IMG/VR virus record: IMGVR_UViG_3300024507_000127
Location: 1 to 54,642 of that record
Reading direction: 5' to 3' (one strand)
From: a virus
DNA: 54,642 nucleotides
In this document: piece after piece, positions 5,313 to 42,327 of the stretch
Layout of the letters: the number at the start of each line of letters is the position of its first letter
How positions within the stretch are numbered: position 1 is the first letter of the stretch
Program-made: the position numbers and the translations under genes
The notes under the pieces: model-generated
What the model was told of the DNA's origin: nothing
The model's database searches: none
Seen by the model: only the letters and a program-made list of their open reading frames with translations

Positions 5313-5834
5313 ATGACTTGTATTGCTGCAATAATTAAAGATGGAAAGTCTTATATGGCTGGAGAAAGAGCCGTTGTAGATGAATCACAACAAATGAAAT
5401 CAGACATTCCTAAAATATGGAAGTCTGGAGATTATTTATTTGGCTATTGTGGCACCTTAGAAGGTCAAATAATTCAAAATAATTTTATACCACCTAAAGT
5501 TGAAGGTAATATAGATAAATTTATGCGTGGTAAATTTCTTGAATCAATTAAGTTATTTTATGATAAGTGGGGTATGCCTGCTGAAAAAGAGTCTGATTTA
5601 ACATTACTTATATGTGTTAAAGGCAGAATGTATGAACATGAATCTGCCAATTTAACCATGATATCCTATGACACAAATTTTGCTGCCATAGGTTCAGGTT
5701 CAGCCTACGCAATGGGTTCTTTACATGCCACCCAAAACTATAAAGATCCAAAGCGTAGGCTGACTCAAGCATTAGATGCTGCTATTTTATATAGTCCACA
5801 TTGTTTATATCCAATTGACTTTCTTAGCAAGTAG
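5313..5834 (+). CDS. Proteasome/HslV-like Ntn hydrolase
   Basis: Encodes 173 residues beginning M-T-C-I-A-A-I. Removal of Met would expose Thr, the nucleophile of proteasome beta and HslV subunits, and D-G/M-A-G-E-R resembles the next strand and turn of that fold. The later G-Y-C-G and I-G-S-G-S-A-Y-A-M-G motifs also match the family. It would be a self-contained peptidase subunit; no unfoldase ATPase is nearby. It might use a host ATPase or act as a peptidase or scaffold protease. Family call fairly firm, role inferred. Confidence 0.75.
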   Translation: MTCIAAIIKDGKSYMAGERAVVDESQQMKSDIPKIWKSGDYLFGYCGTLEGQIIQNNFIPPKVEGNIDKFMRGKFLESIKLFYDKWGMPAEKESDLTLLICVKGRMYEHESANLTMISYDTNFAAIGSGSAYAMGSLHATQNYKDPKRRLTQALDAAILYSPHCLYPIDFLSK

Positions 5835-9314: not shown

Positions 9315-10532
9315 ATGCCAGTAGGTGGTAAAGGAAAGCCAGCAGGCGGGTACCGTGCTGGTAAAAAAGGATCTTATGGTTGTGCAGGATTTCCAACTGT
9401 AAGTGCTGACGGCACAGTACATGGATGCCATCCAACTAAGGCTAAGGCTCAAGCACAGGCTCGTGCTATTTGGGCAAGTACGGCTAAAAAATTTATAAAT
9501 GGTGTAGAAAAAGCAATGGTCACTGAAGGTGATTATGTTATGTTTCTTTGCGAAGAAGATGAAATTAAAGTTGGTCAAGTAGAGTTTGTAATGACTGAAG
9601 GTACTTATGGACTAACAGGTTCAGAATATGCAATGGAAGCAACGCCAGAAGATCCAGTATTATCTATTCGTATTTTTGAAGAAGAAGACGGTGCTTGGGA
9701 AGCAACTGAAGATATTCATGCACACAGAGCATCTGAAGTAGTAAAAATTGAATCATTAATGGTATCAAGAGACGTTGTTGAAGAAATGTCTTCAAGTTCT
9801 TCTCCAGAAGAAACAATGCAGTCTTCAATGGATGCTTATGATAATTCAATTGGCAAATCTTATCAATCCGACAATGAAGATGAAGATAAATGGGATAATA
9901 TGACAAAAGCCTGTTGGGTAGGATATGAGCAAAGAGGCATGAAAGAAAAAGATGGAAGAATGGTTCCTAACTGTGTGCCTGTAAATAAAGCGCAGATGGC
10001 TAATGCACCATATCAAGATGCTGAATTAGATAGACAAGATAGTGCAGATATAGAATTGGCTGCTAAACCTAACTATGAAGATATGATTAAGCCACGCAGA
10101 AGTGGTTCAACACCAGCAAATCCAAGACTATATGCTTCAGTTGTGCAAGCAGCAAAAGATAAATTTGACGTTTATCCTTCTGCAGTTGCAAATGGCTGGG
10201 TAGTTCAAGAATACAAACGTCGTGGTGGTACATACAAAGGAGTTGACATGGACAAGAGAGAATTCTCTGGAGGACAACGTGAAAGAATGGCAGAGGCTGG
10301 AACAGCAATGCCTGATGGTTCTTTCCCAATTGGAAATCGTGCAGATCTTATGAATGCAATTCGTTCTGTTGGACGTGCAAAAGATTATGGTGCTGCAAGA
10401 GCACATATTATTCGTCGTGCACGTGCACTAAATGCAATGGATATGCTTCCTGAAGATTGGCGTAATAAAGCAACAAAGGGTATGGGAGATTGGTCTGGAT
10501 CAATTTTTGATCTAAATCCATTTGTAAAATAA
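9315..10532 (+). CDS. Multi-domain phage protein with DUF5872- and DUF6582-like modules
   Basis: Encodes 405 residues, AGGAGG before ATG and TATAAT at 9285-9290. N-terminal residues 1-55 are Gly/Lys/Ala-rich with C-A-G-F and G-C-H-P motifs. Residues 60-230 are acidic and Ser-rich. Residues about 277-322 (K-F-D-V-Y-P-S-A … Y-K-R-R-G-G) resemble DUF5872, and the C-terminal 80 residues (A-M-P-D-G-S-F-P-I … A-H-I-I-R-R-A-R-A) resemble the DUF6582 module commonly fused to prohead proteases. No protease active site is visible. Probably a head-assembly or DNA-binding structural protein. Confidence 0.65.
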   Translation: MPVGGKGKPAGGYRAGKKGSYGCAGFPTVSADGTVHGCHPTKAKAQAQARAIWASTAKKFINGVEKAMVTEGDYVMFLCEEDEIKVGQVEFVMTEGTYGLTGSEYAMEATPEDPVLSIRIFEEEDGAWEATEDIHAHRASEVVKIESLMVSRDVVEEMSSSSSPEETMQSSMDAYDNSIGKSYQSDNEDEDKWDNMTKACWVGYEQRGMKEKDGRMVPNCVPVNKAQMANAPYQDAELDRQDSADIELAAKPNYEDMIKPRRSGSTPANPRLYASVVQAAKDKFDVYPSAVANGWVVQEYKRRGGTYKGVDMDKREFSGGQRERMAEAGTAMPDGSFPIGNRADLMNAIRSVGRAKDYGAARAHIIRRARALNAMDMLPEDWRNKATKGMGDWSGSIFDLNPFVK

Positions 10533-10672
10533 TGTCTTCTGGCAAATATAAAACAAAACATCCTTTTAACCCCATTCAAATTAAAAATGGCATGATTGTT
10601 AGACTTAATAAGAATGGAACAGTTAAATCAATTCTTGGTAAATATGGAGAGTATAAGAAAAATGAAAAGTAA
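10532..10672 (+). CDS. Basic 46-residue protein, unknown
   Basis: Start overlaps the upstream stop by one base (TAATG) and the end overlaps the next gene by 11 bases, so it is embedded in a tight operon. Rich in Lys and Asn, no motif recognised. Confidence 0.6.
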   Translation: MSSGKYKTKHPFNPIQIKNGMIVRLNKNGTVKSILGKYGEYKKNEK

Positions 10673-21234: not shown

Positions 21235-21235
21235 G

Positions 21236-21307
21236 AGCCTCCTGTAGGATTTGAACCTACGACAACCCGCTTACAAGGCGGGTACTCTACCCCTGAGTTA
21301 AGGAGGC
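21236..21307 (-). tRNA. tRNA-Thr(TGT)
   Basis: 72 bases forming a full cloverleaf: acceptor GCCTCCT with AGGAGGC, anticodon stem CCCGC/GCGGG, anticodon TGT, T-loop GTTCAAATC. No encoded CCA. The next gene starts two bases further on, using the acceptor strand as ribosome site. Confidence 0.95.
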
Positions 21308-21432
21308 AAATGCCAGCCACAAAGTCTCCGCTGGCTGTTATTACCTAGTGGGGTAGCAGAGCAATCTCCTTCGGTCTGAACACCTTCGTATGATGCGCCC
21401 ACGAACTCAGTTTCAGTAATAACGATCTCCAT
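21298..21432 (-). CDS. Possible 44-residue protein between tRNAs
   Basis: An open frame from ATG 21432 ends with a TAA inside the tRNA-Thr gene. It encodes an acidic start (M-E-I-V-I-T-E-T-E-F) and a Gln/Arg-rich end. No clear ribosome site, and the 3' part folds as a six-pair hairpin (GCCAGC/GCTGGC), so it may instead be a tRNA spacer. Confidence 0.35.
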   Translation of the reverse strand: MEIVITETEFVGASYEGVQTEGDCSATPLGNNSQRRLCGWHLPP

Positions 21433-21457
21433 AACATTGTTCAGATGTTATTTCGAG

Positions 21458-21529
21458 TATCTCCAGAGAGAATTGAACTCTCGTTTACACCGTGAAAGGG
21501 TGTTGTCCTAACCACTAGACGATGGAGAC
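21458..21529 (-). tRNA. tRNA-Glu(TTC)
   Basis: 72 bases; acceptor GTCTCCA with TGGAGAT (one G-U), anticodon stem ACACC/GGTGT, loop CTTTCAC giving anticodon TTC, T-loop GTTCAATTC. No encoded CCA. Confidence 0.95.
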
Positions 21530-21533
21530 TTAG

Positions 21534-21607
21534 CGATCCGTATGAGACTTGAACTCACGACCTCCACCGTGACAGGGTGGCGTTCTAACCAACTGAACTA
21601 ACGGACC
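21534..21607 (-). tRNA. tRNA-Asp(GTC)
   Basis: 74 bases; acceptor GGTCCGT with ACGGATC, anticodon stem CCACC/GGTGG, loop CTGTCAC giving GTC, discriminator G, no encoded CCA. Confidence 0.95.
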
Positions 21608-21608
21608 T

Positions 21609-21682
21609 TGGAGCGAATAGCGAGAATCGAACTCGCACATTAACCTTGGCAAGGTTACGCACTACCACTATGCAATATTCGC
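21609..21682 (-). tRNA. tRNA-Gly(GCC)
   Basis: Acceptor GCGAATA with TATTCGC, anticodon stem TAACC/GGTTA, loop TTGCCAA giving GCC. The discriminator T is followed by an encoded CCA (21609-21611), unlike three of the other tRNAs here. Confidence 0.95.
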
Positions 21683-21683
21683 T

Positions 21684-21759
21684 TGGCTGGTCTGGTAGGA
21701 CTCGAACCTACGACCCAGGCATTAACAGTGCCTTGTTCTGCCAACTGAACTACAGACCA
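21684..21759 (-). tRNA. tRNA-Asn(GTT)
   Basis: Acceptor TGGTCTG with CAGACCA, anticodon stem AGGCA/TGCCT, loop CTGTTAA giving GTT; discriminator G and an encoded CCA (21684-21686). It starts immediately after the carbamoyltransferase stop at 21760. Confidence 0.95.
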
Positions 21760-27576: not shown

Positions 27577-28221
27577 ATGAGAGTAATCATTCCAGCAGCA
27601 GGAAAAGGTACACGTTGGAATAACTTTCGTAATACCCCAAAACATCTTGCAATAATAGATGGCGAACCACTGCTAAACAGAACCATTAATCAGTTTAATA
27701 AGTTTAGCAATGATATAGTCGTAATATCTAAAAACAATATAAGTATAAATGCTGCCACTGAATATCCTCTTGAAGGCAACTGGAATGATGCAGCCAAACT
27801 GTACTCATCAGTCCATCTGTGGGGGGAAGATAGAACAATTATTGCATTTGGTGATGTTTGGTTTTCTGATCAAGCGGTAGAGACAATAGCAAATAATATA
27901 GATCCAATACAGTTTTTTCTACGCCCCAAAGCATCAAAAATTACTGGCAAAAAATATAAAGAAATATTTGCATTGAGTTTTGACGGGGGACAAAAAGAGT
28001 TCGTTCGTAATGTCCTACAGCAGGTAATAGAAGAAAACAAAAAAGGTCCTGGAACATACCTGTTGTATAAAAAGATAAGGAACCTTGAAAGCCTACGGGT
28101 ACAGCATCACTTTACAAATAAATCAAACTATGTTGAAATCAACGACTGGACTGAAGACTTTGATCATCCGCAAGATCTAGAAATATGGGAAAAGCGGCGT
28201 TTAAAGTTCGGCGCAAAATAG
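27577..28221 (+). CDS. MobA-like nucleotidyltransferase (sugar-nucleotide type)
   Basis: Encodes 214 residues. P-A-A-G-K-G-T-R-W is the nucleotide-binding signature loop of the NTP-transferase/GT-A fold; F-G-D-V-W-F-S-D gives the metal Asp; E-I-N-D-W-T-E-D-F-D-H-P-Q-D-L closes the active site. It could activate a sugar phosphate for the glycosyltransferase cluster. Followed by a hairpin terminator. Confidence 0.8.
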   Translation: MRVIIPAAGKGTRWNNFRNTPKHLAIIDGEPLLNRTINQFNKFSNDIVVISKNNISINAATEYPLEGNWNDAAKLYSSVHLWGEDRTIIAFGDVWFSDQAVETIANNIDPIQFFLRPKASKITGKKYKEIFALSFDGGQKEFVRNVLQQVIEENKKGPGTYLLYKKIRNLESLRVQHHFTNKSNYVEINDWTEDFDHPQDLEIWEKRRLKFGAK

Positions 28222-28222
28222 A

Positions 28223-28269
28223 ACCCCACAACCAACATTTGCCCCTTTGCAGGGCAATATGGTTGGGGT
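28223..28269 (+). terminator. Imperfect hairpin after the nucleotidyltransferase
   Basis: Three-part stem: 28223-28227 with 28265-28269, 28230-28233 with 28261-28264, and 28239-28244 with 28252-28257. No strong T run follows, so this may be a weak or processing terminator. Confidence 0.5.
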
Positions 28270-28272
28270 ATA

Positions 28273-28365
28273 TCAATCAATGCCTATTGCTTCATAATCA
28301 TCTATATGATCATCTGTATCCCTCATAATGGGAATAAACTCATTCTTTTCTCTGTATAGACTCAT
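28273..28365 (-). CDS. 30-residue acidic microprotein
   Basis: TATAAT (28372-28377) plus six bases then ATG. Encodes M-S-L-Y-R-E-K-N and a D-x-D-D-H-I-D-D-Y tail. Its promoter overlaps the third CAGAAAGGGAG repeat of the adjacent RNA locus. Confidence 0.45.
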   Translation of the reverse strand: MSLYREKNEFIPIMRDTDDHIDDYEAIGID

Positions 28366-28377
28366 ATCTATATTATA

Positions 28378-28512
28378 CAGAAAGGGAGCAGTTTAGACTC
28401 ATGCTCAGGAGTGCGCCTCCAGAAAGGGAGAGGCGACTTATCCGCCAGAAAGGGAGCGGATGCTAGAAGAGGTACGACCACACGGTAAACCATCAGCCGT
28501 TCATGCCTTCTA
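28378..28512 (-). ncRNA. Candidate anti-Shine-Dalgarno small RNA
   Basis: Predicted transcript from the promoter at 28519-28548. Two hairpins have different six-pair stems (28414-28419/28430-28435 and 28440-28445/28456-28461) but the same ten-base loop, UCCCUUUCUG on the RNA. A third copy of the 11-base motif is single-stranded at 28378-28388, next to a GAGCA/TGCTC hairpin. A seven-pair helix (CTAGAAG/CTTCTAG) folds the 5' part. Loops are complementary to the CAGAAAGG ribosome sites of the early genes. No terminator run is visible, so the 3' end is uncertain. Confidence 0.55.
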
Positions 28513-28518
28513 GATATA

Positions 28519-28548
28519 ATTATAGCAAAGTGTTGGCTAGTATGTCAA
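28519..28548 (-). promoter_or_regulatory. Strong promoter TTGACA-N18-TATAAT with extended -10
   Basis: Consensus -35 at 28543-28548 and consensus -10 at 28519-28524, preceded by TGC (extended -10). Nothing coding follows for 150 bases; it drives the candidate small RNA. Confidence 0.8.
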
Positions 28549-28597
28549 ATCCCATTCAATGTCATTTATACTTAGCCATTCAAGGCATGTAGATATT

Positions 28598-28963
28598 TTA
28601 TCGTAAATCATAATCTGGATCCACTGTTCCTGTCTTCTCCCAATATGGGATACCATTCTCGTCATAATCAGAGCCAAGCCTATCCATTAATTCTTGGTCT
28701 TCATCATCAAAAGATATATCGTAATGTGTTCCCCATCTACTATATGGCTTATCTAAAACATTGTATAGCCAGTTATAGGTTCTAATTCTAAGATGGTCAA
28801 ACTTCGGCGGTACAAAGGAGTTATCCTCATCATACTCATTCTCATATATATAATATATCCTTAATGACCTAGATAAGAACATATGGGATATACGGTGAAA
28901 TATCTGATTGGCTATAAACCTCAAGATTAGGTTATTGGTTTGATGCTCAGGAATGAATTGCAT
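28598..28963 (-). CDS. 121-residue protein, unknown
   Basis: I choose ATG 28963 because TATACT (28970-28975) lies six bases before it, giving a leaderless message. Basic/hydrophobic N-terminal half, acidic C-terminal half (D-D-E-D-Q-E … D-P-D-Y-D). It sits beside the DnaA boxes, so a replication-linked role is possible, but nothing is recognised. Confidence 0.55.
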   Translation of the reverse strand: MQFIPEHQTNNLILRFIANQIFHRISHMFLSRSLRIYYIYENEYDEDNSFVPPKFDHLRIRTYNWLYNVLDKPYSRWGTHYDISFDDEDQELMDRLGSDYDENGIPYWEKTGTVDPDYDLR

Positions 28964-29168
28964 ATGACAAGTATAGCCTAAATGTCCTGATTTGTATACC
29001 CCGTTTTCCACAAAATCTCATAGTTATCCACAGGTTTATCCACAAAAATATATTACTGATTATATTTTCATATACTATAGGTGGAGGAAAAGGGAGGAAA
29101 GTGGGGAATGGAACATCTTTAGAAGATGGATCGTAATGCGACAGTTCAAACCAACCCAGTTCCCAAAC

Positions 29169-30320: not shown

Positions 30321-30671
30321 TTATTTTGAGATAGCCATTCCATGATAATTAACAAACTCATCAAATGAATGCCAGTCTTCACCATTGCCTACAGTATTAT
30401 CTGTAAAATCAATTGTGATTGGTGTGTCCATGAATGCCTGGTCCGTAGGGTCACACCCATAGATACCAAAGCCAGTCTCGTCCATGATGTTATCCTGAAT
30501 TAAATAACTAATTGCCATACGGGTACCATATGAAGGGTCCGTCCACCTAGGTCTTGCATGATTCAATGCCGCTGCCAGGTCTGGATACAACGAGTCCTCA
30601 CCCCAGTGGCTGTATAGTGCCACGGCATGGTCCTCACTAGTTTTAAATACAAATGTACAACGTGCTCCCAT
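30321..30671 (-). CDS. 116-residue phage protein, unknown
   Basis: Begins M-G-A-R-C-T-F-V-F with Y-S-H-W-G-E-D; this opening is familiar from actinophage early proteins of unknown function. Acidic, mixed alpha/beta. One-base overlap with the gene before. Confidence 0.65.
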   Translation of the reverse strand: MGARCTFVFKTSEDHAVALYSHWGEDSLYPDLAAALNHARPRWTDPSYGTRMAISYLIQDNIMDETGFGIYGCDPTDQAFMDTPITIDFTDNTVGNGEDWHSFDEFVNYHGMAISK

Positions 30672-30946
30672 TATTCTTCTTCCTTTCTTGCTGCTATTGC
30701 GAATGATAAATCATATGTCAAACTATATAGATGAGCATATGCGTCACACATACCCTCCCAATATTTACGTTCCATAGAATCCATAGCCTCTTCAGTTTCA
30801 TCCTCCAAAGCCTGTGCATTAATTAGTTCTTGCTCTGCCTGCAGCATGAGAACTTTTAGGTGACCGTGCATGATATCGATACCGCTGATATCATGGTCTA
30901 CCTGTTTTTGCAGGTATGGTTCTAATGTTGTTGGTGATATTTCCAC
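30671..30946 (-). CDS. 91-residue helical protein, unknown
   Basis: CAGAAAGGAA lies before the start, the early-gene ribosome-site type. Glu/Ala-rich helices, one Cys. Not recognised; overlaps both neighbours. Confidence 0.6.
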   Translation of the reverse strand: MEISPTTLEPYLQKQVDHDISGIDIMHGHLKVLMLQAEQELINAQALEDETEEAMDSMERKYWEGMCDAYAHLYSLTYDLSFAIAARKEEE

Positions 30947-31143
30947 TACTGTTCCTTTCTGAACTCGTCAATTGTAGATAGAATATGATAGCAGGCAGCA
31001 ATGGCACCTGCCAAATACTCTTCCATGTACGTATCCTCATTTGAATACATACCACCTGCTTCATATTTAGTATGAATGTTTTCAATATCTTGCTCCATGC
31101 TAAGAGCATGTAACTTGATATATTCTACTAACTTGTCAATCAT
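30946..31143 (-). CDS. 65-residue helical protein, unknown
   Basis: CAGAAAGG precedes ATG 31143. Helical, resembles the neighbouring protein in having Y-x-x-G-M-x-x-A/Y-A type spacing (weak). Function unknown. Confidence 0.6.
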   Translation of the reverse strand: MIDKLVEYIKLHALSMEQDIENIHTKYEAGGMYSNEDTYMEEYLAGAIAACYHILSTIDEFRKEQ

Positions 31144-31867
31144 TGCTTACCTTTCTGTATTCTGGCACATTGTCCAAGTATACCTTGTGGGTATCACATT
31201 CCGCAACACAGTCAAGGTCTGCTTCCCCCATATAATTACACTCTGAACAAATCTCACCACAATCATTTTCACAGTATTCTAAACTATTTAGTGAATCACA
31301 ATCTCTACATTTGTTTTCATATGATTCTTCTTCAGTAGCAATACCGTTATTGAAGTTGACAGAACCACCCCAACCAGTTTCTTCCTCATAAGATAGATTC
31401 ATCTCTAGGCTAGGATACTGTTCTGATAGTTTAGTTATAGCCTCAACAGGTGGAGACCAAGCAGTATTAAACTTATACCCCACAGAACTATCAGTCTCTT
31501 CATATAACTCAGTCTCAGGATACTCATCACCGTCACGAACTGCAACATCCCATTTGGTTCCCCAGTTGCGAACATTCCAGTCGTACCAATGGTTGCCCTT
31601 GAACATAAGAGATTCTTCTAAAGGCAGGGTATGGTCAGGTTGCTTTATGTAATCCTCATCTGAGATACCGTCTTGTCTATGATTATATATATTATGAAAT
31701 GCAAAGACAGGGTTTGAATAACTTGTTTCTGATATTTCCATTTGTTTTGTATTCATATTCCATGAATCATGGCTCATGACAAATGGTTTGTTGAGTTGTC
31801 GTTTTACATCTGCAACCAAGGCTTCATCACCTGATATGTCAAGATAGTTATAGCACCAGTTAGGCAT
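31136..31867 (-). CDS. DUF1281/YubB-like protein
   Basis: Encodes 243 residues. M-P-N-W-C-Y-N, then N-W-G-T-K-W-D and T-A-W-S-P-P are the conserved blocks of the API-type DUF1281/YubB family found on plasmids and phages. The C-terminal 60 residues add a Cys-rich tail (C-x2-C … C-x3-C … C-x2-C) not seen in short members, probably zinc binding. Function unknown. Confidence 0.75.
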   Translation of the reverse strand: MPNWCYNYLDISGDEALVADVKRQLNKPFVMSHDSWNMNTKQMEISETSYSNPVFAFHNIYNHRQDGISDEDYIKQPDHTLPLEESLMFKGNHWYDWNVRNWGTKWDVAVRDGDEYPETELYEETDSSVGYKFNTAWSPPVEAITKLSEQYPSLEMNLSYEEETGWGGSVNFNNGIATEEESYENKCRDCDSLNSLEYCENDCGEICSECNYMGEADLDCVAECDTHKVYLDNVPEYRKVSND

Positions 31868-32055
31868 TACTTAACCTCCTCATCTAGTTCTACTTCCTCT
31901 TCTTCTTTTTCCCATACCTCAATAGAATAAACTTCGCCTGAGTAAGCGTGGTCTTCATAGTGCCAACCAAGTTCCTCTGCTTGTTCCTCAGTCTCTGCTT
32001 CTACTTCATAGAAATACTCTACTACTACCTTTAGGTCATACATTGGCATTTTCAT
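31867..32055 (-). CDS. 62-residue very acidic protein
   Basis: CAGAAAGGGA stands before the start, identical to the loop complement of the candidate small RNA. Alternating beta-like start then Glu-rich tail (E-E-E-E-V-E-L-D-E-E-V). Could mimic nucleic acid; no homologue recognised. Confidence 0.6.
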   Translation of the reverse strand: MKMPMYDLKVVVEYFYEVEAETEEQAEELGWHYEDHAYSGEVYSIEVWEKEEEEVELDEEVK

Positions 32056-32158
32056 TTTCCCTTTCTGTTAGAAAATAATACATAGCGCAATCACGGCAAT
32101 CACAATACGAATCGTGATAGGCTACAGTTTTGGTGAGTTCCTCTAAGTAAATGTCCAT
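32036..32158 (-). CDS. 40-residue Cys-cluster protein
   Basis: Contains Y-C-D-C-R-D-C-A near the middle. Starts six bases after a -10 (32165-32170), so leaderless. Related in layout to the protein at 32483. Confidence 0.5.
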   Translation of the reverse strand: MDIYLEELTKTVAYHDSYCDCRDCAMYYFLTERENENANV

Positions 32159-35145: not shown

Positions 35146-35169
35146 GAGCAGTTTTACATCATGCTCAGG
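35146..35169 (-). repeat. GAGCA/TGCTC hairpin 4
   Basis: CCTGAGCA, loop TGATG-TAAAAC, TGCTC on the minus-strand RNA. Confidence 0.65.
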
Positions 35170-35175
35170 ATGAAG

Positions 35176-35249
35176 GCTCTCAAGGGACTTTCGCAGAAAG
35201 TTCAATCTAATCTAGTTTTAGATCGCAGTCTGCCGTGAACACAGAGAGC
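35176..35249 (-). ncRNA. Possible structured RNA after the 35257 gene
   Basis: Closing helix GCTCTC/GAGAGC (35244-35249 with 35176-35181) encloses GTTCA/TGAAC, an ATCTA-AAAC-TAGAT hairpin and an ACTTTC-TGC-GAAAGT hairpin. Nothing coding is seen here. Confidence 0.4.
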
Positions 35250-35256
35250 AATTCTG

Positions 35257-35456: not shown

Positions 35457-35480
35457 GAGCAGTTTTATTTCATGCTCAGG
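35457..35480 (-). repeat. GAGCA/TGCTC hairpin 5
   Basis: CCTGAGCA, TGAAA-TAAAAC, TGCTC between two coupled genes, without its own promoter: here the hairpin must work on a read-through transcript. Confidence 0.65.
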
Positions 35481-35488
35481 AAAGTGAT

Positions 35489-35908
35489 TTACAAGTATCT
35501 AGCGATAGCGTTGTAAGTTGAAGTTGAAACTACTTCCTCATCTGTCATTTTCAGAATACGGATAGCGTTTTCAATTTCCTCTACCATTTCCTTGTATTGC
35601 CAATCGTGGAAACTCTCAAAATCCTTTTCAGGTTCTTTTGGAAGTTCAATAGTTCCCTTTGGCAAGGAGAACGATACATTTATTTCGCCATTGTAGCGAG
35701 TGTGAGCAGACAAGTCCTCTGCCTTAGAGATTTGACCAAGTGCTAACTTAGCAATCTCTTTGTTATACTTTTCTTGTGCCTTTGAGAACTTTTCCTCATT
35801 GACTTTCTGATTAGCCTTATCCTTTTGGAGTTGGGCTAGTTTAGTTTCAAGTGCCTTGATTACTTTGGTCGTAGCAATCTTGACATTTATGGCTTTGCCT
35901 CTTGACAT
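35489..35908 (-). CDS. 139-residue coiled-coil protein, unknown
   Basis: Residues 10-75 form a Lys/Ala/Gln-rich helix (A-T-T-K-V-I-K-A-L-E-T-K-L-A), followed by a beta segment and a second helix. Familiar type in actinophage early regions. ACAGAAAGGAAAA ribosome site. Confidence 0.65.
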   Translation of the reverse strand: MSRGKAINVKIATTKVIKALETKLAQLQKDKANQKVNEEKFSKAQEKYNKEIAKLALGQISKAEDLSAHTRYNGEINVSFSLPKGTIELPKEPEKDFESFHDWQYKEMVEEIENAIRILKMTDEEVVSTSTYNAIARYL

Positions 35909-36304: not shown

Positions 36305-36368
36305 TTCTATGTCCCATGCCTGCGAAAAACAAGGCTAAGACTAATAGTGTTATTATTAATACTTCCAT
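36300..36368 (-). CDS. 22-residue membrane microprotein
   Basis: CAGAAAGGAAAGC then ATG, with a dedicated promoter (TTGCCA-N17-TACAAT). Encodes one hydrophobic helix followed by G-M-G-H-R-K. A complete expression unit for 22 residues argues that it is real. Confidence 0.6.
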   Translation of the reverse strand: MEVLIITLLVLALFFAGMGHRK

Positions 36369-39317: not shown

Positions 39318-39341
39318 AAGCAGTTTTAAATCATGCTTAGG
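39318..39341 (-). repeat. Hairpin 7 with compensatory change
   Basis: Arms AAGCA and TGCTT replace GAGCA and TGCTC; both strands of the pair changed together. Loop keeps TGAT-TTAAAAC. Confidence 0.65.
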
Positions 39342-39350
39342 ATCTGAAAA

Positions 39351-42150: not shown

Positions 42151-42327
42151 ATGACTACATTAACACTCAATGATAAAATCGCTATCGCTGCAGAAAAGGT
42201 AGCCAATGGCGAACTAGTATCCTTTAGAGGTGCTAGTGTTACTACATACGCTAAGGTTATGCGCCTTGCTAATAGAATTAAGCAAGAGCGAGAATTCCCA
42301 CAATGCCCATGTGGAGAGTGTGACTAA
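42151..42327 (+). CDS. 58-residue protein with C-terminal Cys triplet
   Basis: Helical body and C-P-C-G-E-C-D end. AAGAAAGG before ATG. First gene of the rightward arm; possibly a small regulator. Confidence 0.6.
   Translation: MTTLTLNDKIAIAAEKVANGELVSFRGASVTTYAKVMRLANRIKQEREFPQCPCGECD

Follow-up and report, generated by a model that had tools for sequence, protein, structure and literature searches.

A candidate phage small RNA with anti-Shine–Dalgarno loops and a 3′ pseudoknot that recurs behind genes of diverse phages

A 6C RNA is defined by a pair of hairpins, each with at least six C in its loop. The LhrC family of Listeria and the RsaE-type small RNAs (sRNAs) carry repeated UCCC motifs aimed at ribosome sites, and CsrB is a protein sponge with repeated loops. 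The 6C/B11 sRNA of actinobacteria (RF01066) uses C-rich loops to pair with the ribosome sites of several mRNAs. In M. abscessus, its repression is reported to persist with either of two loops mutated (PMC10470900), and the C-rich loop that is active in M. marinum is reported to lie within the terminator (PMC12395582).

We analyzed a viral sequence of 54,642 nucleotides, hereafter the window (IMG/VR record IMGVR_UViG_3300024507_000127, positions 1–54,642), and found on the minus strand of its region 28,366–28,548 a locus that likewise appears to encode a small RNA with loops complementary to ribosome sites. Unlike 6C/B11, the RNA is phage-encoded, its 3′ end is a pseudoknot, and its loop, UCCCUUUCUG, is not a long C run: the two hairpins of the 6C definition are there, but with three C in a row. 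The 6C model (RF01066) gave no match at E 10 in window positions 28200–28620 or in any of 21 phage records; by these tests the RNA is not a 6C member, although the control search was weak, with a signal in 4 of 14 genomes and none above the cut-off. Compared by description only, the LhrC and RsaE-type RNAs differ from it in architecture and host group. The host of this phage we infer to be an actinobacterium, because the phage carries a WhiB protein and its closest named terminase and DUF932 proteins (48 and 54% identity, respectively) are those of Streptomyces phages. At the Rfam 15 gathering score only tRNAs were matched in the window and in 10 member loci, and in the stretches searched neither the sRNA nor the pseudoknot was found to belong to a known family. 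The literature searched, with most subscription journals and preprint servers outside it, yielded nothing on either element in the text available, and literal pseudoknot strings returned no such element by title among the matches listed. The statement in a preliminary description of the locus, made from the sequence alone, that no phage RNA of this design had been described is thus uncontradicted in these sources, but the principle is described for 6C/B11.

Our preferred reading, to which we assign a probability of roughly 55%, is a trans-acting, 6C-like sRNA that damps early translation and carries the pseudoknot as a protective 3′ end. An RNA of about 105–140 nt would be made from a minus-strand promoter, and its loops would bind by base pairing to the ribosome sites of GAAAGG type that distinguish early genes. 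The pairing would hinder ribosome binding and so damp or end early translation, while the pseudoknot would protect the RNA end, most likely against 3′-to-5′ exonucleases. The parts of the locus are as follows.

28543–28548, minus strand: −35 element TTGACA, read from the sequence
28519–28524, minus strand: −10 element TATAAT after an 18-base spacer, from promoter comparison; probable start near 28512
28464–28512, minus strand: 5′ hairpin of the sRNA, differing in sequence and length between relatives
28440–28461, minus strand: hairpin A, six pairs, all formed in 17 of 17 sequences; loop UCCCUUUCUG at 28446–28455
28414–28435, minus strand: hairpin B, six pairs, all formed in 17 of 17 sequences; loop UCCCUUUCUG at 28420–28429
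28386–28412, minus strand: H-type pseudoknot, P1 28409–28412/28397–28400, P2 28403–28406/28386–28389
28378–28385, minus strand: pyrimidine tail CCUUUCUG behind the pseudoknot, the second part of the third motif copy
28372–28377, minus strand: TATAAT right after the tail, by its sequence and place the probable −10 element of a leaderless downstream ORF
28273–28365, minus strand: 30-codon ORF directly downstream of the sRNA, read from the sequence
28208–28268, minus strand: strong inverted repeat, probably a terminator

The preliminary description had proposed a consensus promoter on this strand followed by three copies of an 11-base motif, two of them displayed as loops on different six-pair stems, and these elements are all present. 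TTGACA (28548–28543) and TATAAT (28524–28519) are separated by 18 bases, and the 11-mer CTCCCTTTCTG occurs in exactly three copies in 54.6 kb (28446–28456, 28420–28430 and 28378–28388, all minus), with 14 further places in the window matching it with one or two mismatches each. The first two copies form the loops of hairpins A and B, whose 6-bp stems are unrelated in sequence. The third is exact too but belongs to a pseudoknot module that the description had missed: it consists of GCUC, the 3′ strand of P2, and the tail CCUUUCUG, and a third loop is ruled out. Folded from hairpin A to the tail, the 86 nt have a z score of −3.2, with 1 of 200 shuffles as stable. A coding role for the overlapping 41-codon ORF at 28368–28493 was likewise ruled out because the loop-to-loop spacing is 16 or 17 nt in relatives and the reading frame is not conserved.

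Elsewhere in the window, two TTATCCACA-like motifs, which we take to resemble DnaA boxes, lie next to an AT-rich stretch a short way upstream of the sRNA (29020–29045), and the minus strand at 21235–21759 carries five clustered tRNA genes (Thr, Glu, Asp, Gly and Asn).

To find relatives, IMG/VR was scanned for two spaced loop copies, giving 35 viral loci. Since 21 of these are this RNA in the window's layout, the double-loop layout exceeds chance; two loci (L003, L026) have a related architecture and 12 are something else, e.g., repeat arrays. A second scan, for one loop and the conserved 3′ part, returned 28 loci; 25 are compatible with the RNA and 3 (L157, L161, L162) are not. The covariance-model search of related phages that the preliminary description had suggested was run with a model of the RNA (R1) on 31 whole records, among them the Streptomyces genome of L037. 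It gave 21 two-hairpin copies (at least 96 bits) and five one-hairpin copies (38–53 bits), one per record; the numerous weaker matches were mostly single pseudoknots. From hairpin A to the tail there are 18 distinct two-hairpin sequences (17 aligned and L361), besides several one-hairpin forms; the copies of L018, L021 and L029 are identical to the window's and add no independence, and L009 differs from L008 in the 5′ hairpin only.

In the alignment of the 17 distinct sequences (A1), 97.3% of 338 cells are paired, and 11 of 20 pairs show double-sided changes, four of them in hairpin A and five in hairpin B. Neither the observed pairing nor the covariation score was reached by any of 500 shuffles, and slid partners pair in only 39–53%. 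The stems of both hairpins and P2 of the pseudoknot are 100% paired, with one P2 pair changing from A–U to G–C in 7 of the 17; the inner three P1 pairs are invariant in the counted cells (the GUC/GAC rows L023 and L027 fell on a gap), and the outermost is broken in 9 of 17. All 17 cut-out segments are predicted to form a 5′ hairpin despite differing sequence and length, with a weak one in L023 (–3.0 kcal/mol), where the start is probably misplaced. Promoter elements recur among the members in differing sequence; in L155 a −10 element was looked for and not found. All 34 loops contain the core CCUUUCUG, a count biased by the members having been found through the core, and loop identity is partly a product of a search that used loop patterns first and then a model containing the loops. 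The first loop bases vary, with UACCUUUCUG in both loops of L158, AACCUUUCUG in one of L155 and an extra C in one of L156. By sequence comparison, then, the design is a promoter, a variable 5′ hairpin, one or two anti-Shine–Dalgarno (anti-SD) hairpins with the core CCUUUCUG, a 3′ pseudoknot and usually a pyrimidine tail, and family and covariation together support the earlier idea of a conserved phage RNA presenting anti-SD loops on structure.

The alignment also bears on the strand. One pair of hairpin B is G–U in 11 of 17 sequences, G–C in 4 and C–G in 2, and the G–U form would be an A–C mismatch on the plus strand. The complement of the hairpin can fold too, as a functional plus strand showing SD decoys would need, but the promoter elements and the orientation of the early operon are those of the minus strand, and we consider such decoys extremely improbable.

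The related architecture of L003 (5707–5840) and L026 has a similar promoter and two UCCCUUUCUG hairpins, the second stem extended and ending in CCCC-CUUUCUG, without a pseudoknot. Scanning genome contigs with the double-loop pattern gave at least 118 stretches, and a stem check found two six-pair stems at one locus in none of those listed. No sRNA copy was found in 396 sampled actinobacterial genomes, in a search that had no positive control.

The position of the RNA is conserved among its carriers. In the parts examined, 17 of 24 records hold a homolog of p30321, and in all 17 the sRNA lies on its strand, behind the early operon and 2.1–3.3 kb downstream (6.7 kb in G016); three of these records belong to the window's own population, and several of the 17 are near-identical contigs. 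The best match of p29727 is on the other strand and far off in five records. The ORFs that follow the sRNA differ between members, which argues against a cis-acting leader of the downstream ORF in place of a separate RNA. An ORF does stand close behind in many members, and directly behind the window's pseudoknot there is no canonical terminator, both as expected of a leader; against this, several of the differing ORFs have, by eye, promoter-like elements of their own just before the start codon, and we regard a leader as improbable. Recurring promoter elements ahead of differing ORFs are, at the level of sequence, what suggests an independent sRNA.

A less biased set was obtained through the neighboring protein encoded at 30671–30946, for which 404 relatives were found in viral contigs and 80 were kept. 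R1 detected the RNA in 11 of them (10 two-hairpin and 1 one-hairpin), including three of the window's population, two sharing score and place, and the newly found L361 with loops ACCCUUUCUG and UACCUUUCUG. The preliminary description had named loss of the hairpins in phages that keep the neighborhood as evidence against it, and such loss is common: among the 62 loci that extend 5 kb or more past the anchor gene, near-duplicates included, 10 have the RNA and 52 lack a full match. In G016 the RNA lies 7.7 kb behind the anchor, so further cases could have escaped detection. Two of the 52, L335 (~10390–10520) and L357 (~10415–10545), carry a different RNA-like stretch at the sRNA's place: by eye, an apparent 5′ hairpin, in L335 also a TATAAT, then a different middle part without an anti-SD loop, and the pseudoknot. 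The sRNA is thus accessory, as it is missing from most relatives keeping the neighborhood, and it looks modular.

We then considered what the loops could bind. Gene calls were heuristic, with starts picked by SD pairing, and three minus-strand genes above 42.5 kb, none with GAAAGG, were excluded. GAAAGG was found in the SD window of 19 of 32 early minus-strand genes in the window and in 0 of 67 others (Fisher 3e-12), the latter being the 54 plus-strand genes and the 13 minus-strand genes below 26 kb. Two plus-strand sites, with starts at 42151 and 42709, belong to ORFs of 58 and 36 aa, too short for the length limit. In five other phages with the sRNA, it occurs at 61 of 131 early-side genes and 6 of 275 elsewhere. 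The loops therefore match one gene class, the early genes with GAAAGG sites, as the preliminary description had claimed; the individual SD matches it named are present as sequence, but near 36368 no ORF of at least 30 aa lies at the right distance. The target prediction it had suggested favors the early sites, with mean loop pairing of –8.4 vs. –4.9 kcal/mol for the others, but so does the 16S tail (–9.1 vs. –5.2), and since the tail shows the same difference, the loop adds, in this model, no preference beyond SD class and strength. The loop presumably has the same sequence as the 3′ portion of the 16S tail of actinobacteria. Its pairing with phage SDs about as well as the tail's is what one would expect of a global dampener, an anti-SD mimic that would vie with the 16S tail for all AGAAAGG sites, those of host messages too. 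The difference between early and other genes, in a comparison of phage genes alone, fits a phage-internal target set instead, and we judge global competition unlikely.

The best predicted target, at –16.2 kcal/mol, is the following site.

32057–32067, minus strand: ribosome site CAGAAAGGGAA of ORF 31867–32055, the complement of the full ten-base loop

This is the sole site matching all ten loop bases, and its ORF turned up in 3 of 25 records, all belonging to the window's own population. Just 6 of the window's 27 GAAAGG ribosome sites have the two bases required for CAGAAAGG. A conserved candidate target is the homolog of 35489–35908, with CAGAAAGG in 10 of the 11 sites shown; the homolog of 31136–31867 has it in 10 of 17, the window's own copy being GAGGAGG. 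Among GAAAGG sites, CAGAAAGG accounts for 29 of 81 in phages with the RNA and 23 of 132 in those without (p 0.003; per-locus p 0.03); the former also have a higher density of GAAAGG sites (p 0.016), in tests reduced to 8 and 21 distinct loci and ignoring phylogeny. Relatives without the RNA use a similar SD class, including six CAGAAAGG in L335. Repression of the whole early set by one RNA, the bolder part of the original proposal, we keep as a hypothesis, because at most early sites loop pairing is no stronger than that of the 16S tail, and RNA-less relatives use similar SDs. Identical repeated loops on unrelated stems would also suit a protein sponge or scaffold with an incidental anti-SD likeness, but the core loop complements the ribosome sites of the neighboring operon, and we find such a role decidedly unlikely. 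Most likely, the sRNA works like 6C/B11, with its loops on ribosome sites.

The pseudoknot is a module separate from the sRNA, with a covarying H-type fold. Its consensus is P1 (three to five pairs), CU, P2, AU, P1′ and an AAA-bearing linker, then mostly CU and P2′, spanning 26–28 nt. Scanning for the form with GAGC gave at least 120 stretches; R1, applied to 95 of these loci, found no second full-length member (best 33 bits). Among 136 distinct copies, U stands opposite the fixed A of P1 in 136, the next P1 pair, free on both sides, is Watson–Crick in 133 with all four types represented, and the following pair is Watson–Crick in 104 and G–U in 14. With P2 left free and GAGC excluded, 55 of 100 sites formed all four P2 pairs in 16 combinations, vs. 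0–3 in slid controls and 17 at +1; of the 55, 22 are GAGU/GCUC, a change from the searched form in just one of the two P2 strands. Four copies lie in the window, all on the minus strand (scan positions 28409, 35169, 35480 and 39341), three of them outside the sRNA.

35457–35483, minus strand: second copy, 5 nt after the stop of ORF 35489–35908
35146–35172, minus strand: third copy, preceded by about 75 nt of possibly structured non-coding sequence
39318–39345, minus strand: fourth copy (P2 AAGC/GCUU), 5 nt after a TAG stop

Directly before a copy, minus-strand positions 35180–35255 have a GCUCUC/GAGAGC closing stem and are not called as a tRNA.

Small H-type pseudoknots with an A-rich third loop, as in this element, include the preQ1-I riboswitch and similar RNAs; the phage pseudoknot differs from them in sequence, has no Rfam match in the searched stretches, and lies typically behind genes rather than only before them. 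With the exoribonuclease-resistant RNAs (xrRNAs) of eukaryotic viruses, the comparison is one of folds: both are compact viral pseudoknots, but the one described here spans 26–28 nt and sits behind stop codons. The xrRNAs are described as stopping 5′-to-3′ enzymes; for the phage element, exonuclease protection is proposed from its position. STAXI is a pseudoknot motif from the comparison of bacterial DNA, reported as two or three knots in tandem near DNA-handling genes (PMC2864571), whereas the phage element occurs in single copies and, in the searched stretches, without an Rfam match.

Many copies closely follow a gene: in 64 of 137 the pseudoknot starts no more than 15 nt after the stop of an ORF of at least 50 aa, compared with 10% of random intergenic places in the same loci, and the distance to the stop has a sharp lower edge at 5–6 nt with one exception. 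Only eight lie inside a same-strand ORF of at least 60 aa. Within 60 nt, 15 of the 137 have a tRNA downstream, at 4–14 nt, and none has one upstream. In a set of 204 copies, an ORF ends no more than 40 nt upstream of 118; the most frequent family on the upstream side (28) resembles the window's DUF932 protein, and 15 of the 28 are then followed by tRNA-Asp. The window's own DUF932 gene has no recognized copy. The stop codon directly before the pseudoknot is TAA in 38 of 55 cases, vs. 975 of 2,120 for all ORFs counted in those loci.

Because it follows stop codons, precedes tRNAs and closes the sRNA, the pseudoknot is best read as a 3′-end element, and protection from exonucleases would be its simplest role. 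A mere 3′ protector leaves the minimum stop distance of 5–6 nt unexplained, and this edge is suggestive of an effect on the terminating ribosome; the element may also be a processing signal or a protein site. The pseudoknot might also serve the following gene, being closer than random to downstream starts, with the next ORF beginning within 50 nt in 44% of cases vs. 28% at random. Two further roles were rejected. Stop-codon readthrough is contradicted by the lack of an open frame continuing past the stop: the 55 copies lying no more than 12 nt past a stop include 10 in which a further in-frame stop follows immediately and 31 in which one follows within eight codons. As a rule the element is not a terminator either, although runs of four T within 20 nt downstream (28 of 136) exceed the background further on (9 of 136).

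The pseudoknot occurs in phages of actinobacteria, cyanobacteria, Firmicutes and proteobacteria, as judged by sequence matches. Named phages were drawn from 5 of 60 and 10 of 50 matched records examined; strict matches are cyanophage S-RIM4, Paracoccus phages ParMal1 and ParKuw1, phage NatCom_3357, Mycobacterium phage Labelle, Arthrobacter phage Molivia (in the order ssb, pseudoknot, tRNA), Nostoc phage NMeng1 (pseudoknot, tRNA), Microcystis phage Mwe-JY13 and Lactobacillus phage phiEF-1.1. In these nine, the pseudoknot lies 6–10 nt from an annotated stop in five and 44–173 nt in four. Small variants were recognized by eye in Synechococcus phage S-EIVl (two copies), Moorella phage MTATph1 and thermophilic phage D6E, and in NatCom_6392 and Vibrio phage D456, whose surrounding genes are annotated on the other strand; 52 Vibrio records that matched query bases 1–17 only, inside annotated genes, were not counted. 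Streptomyces phage Jay2Jay, a named relative by terminase and DUF932, has no copy in the 58.5 kb read of its 133.5 kb. In cellular genomes of the one phylum sampled, the element is rare: the exact pattern of the GAGC form was found in 3 of 396 actinobacterial genomes, and a reversed control in 0.

More tentatively, and at somewhat less than even odds, the pseudoknot may be an undescribed phage-wide 3′-end module that fixes and protects the ends of mRNAs and noncoding RNAs in phages of at least these four bacterial groups, with the sRNA an exchangeable cassette on the module (compare L335 and L357) and a switch reading the shared SD class of the early genes. If so, a phage group with probably actinobacterial hosts would time expression through one RNA reading the SD class of an operon, which simple reporters could test. 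A covarying pseudoknot of 26–28 nt behind genes of unrelated phages would make the 3′-end biology of phage RNA directly testable and would account for many intergenic gaps. Its presence in many unrelated phages suggests that bacterial viruses have a level of RNA control of which little is known.

Other hairpins were seen in relatives near the anchor gene. Terminator-like hairpins of 12–13 bp stand behind an ORF in L397 (~8760) and L339 (~4331) with CCUUUCU in the loop. In hairpin loops of RNA-less relatives this motif is not enriched (3 of 25; 19 of 60 permuted motifs as high), and since it is not, we make no claim for extra anti-SD hairpins of the L339, L379 and L397 classes. In L359 (~5480–5600) and L398 (~5440–5560), a GAAAGG hairpin, a CAUCCUUUCUU hairpin and a pseudoknot-like stretch follow a stop codon in a row, and the GAAAGG and CAUCCUUUCUU loops could kiss.
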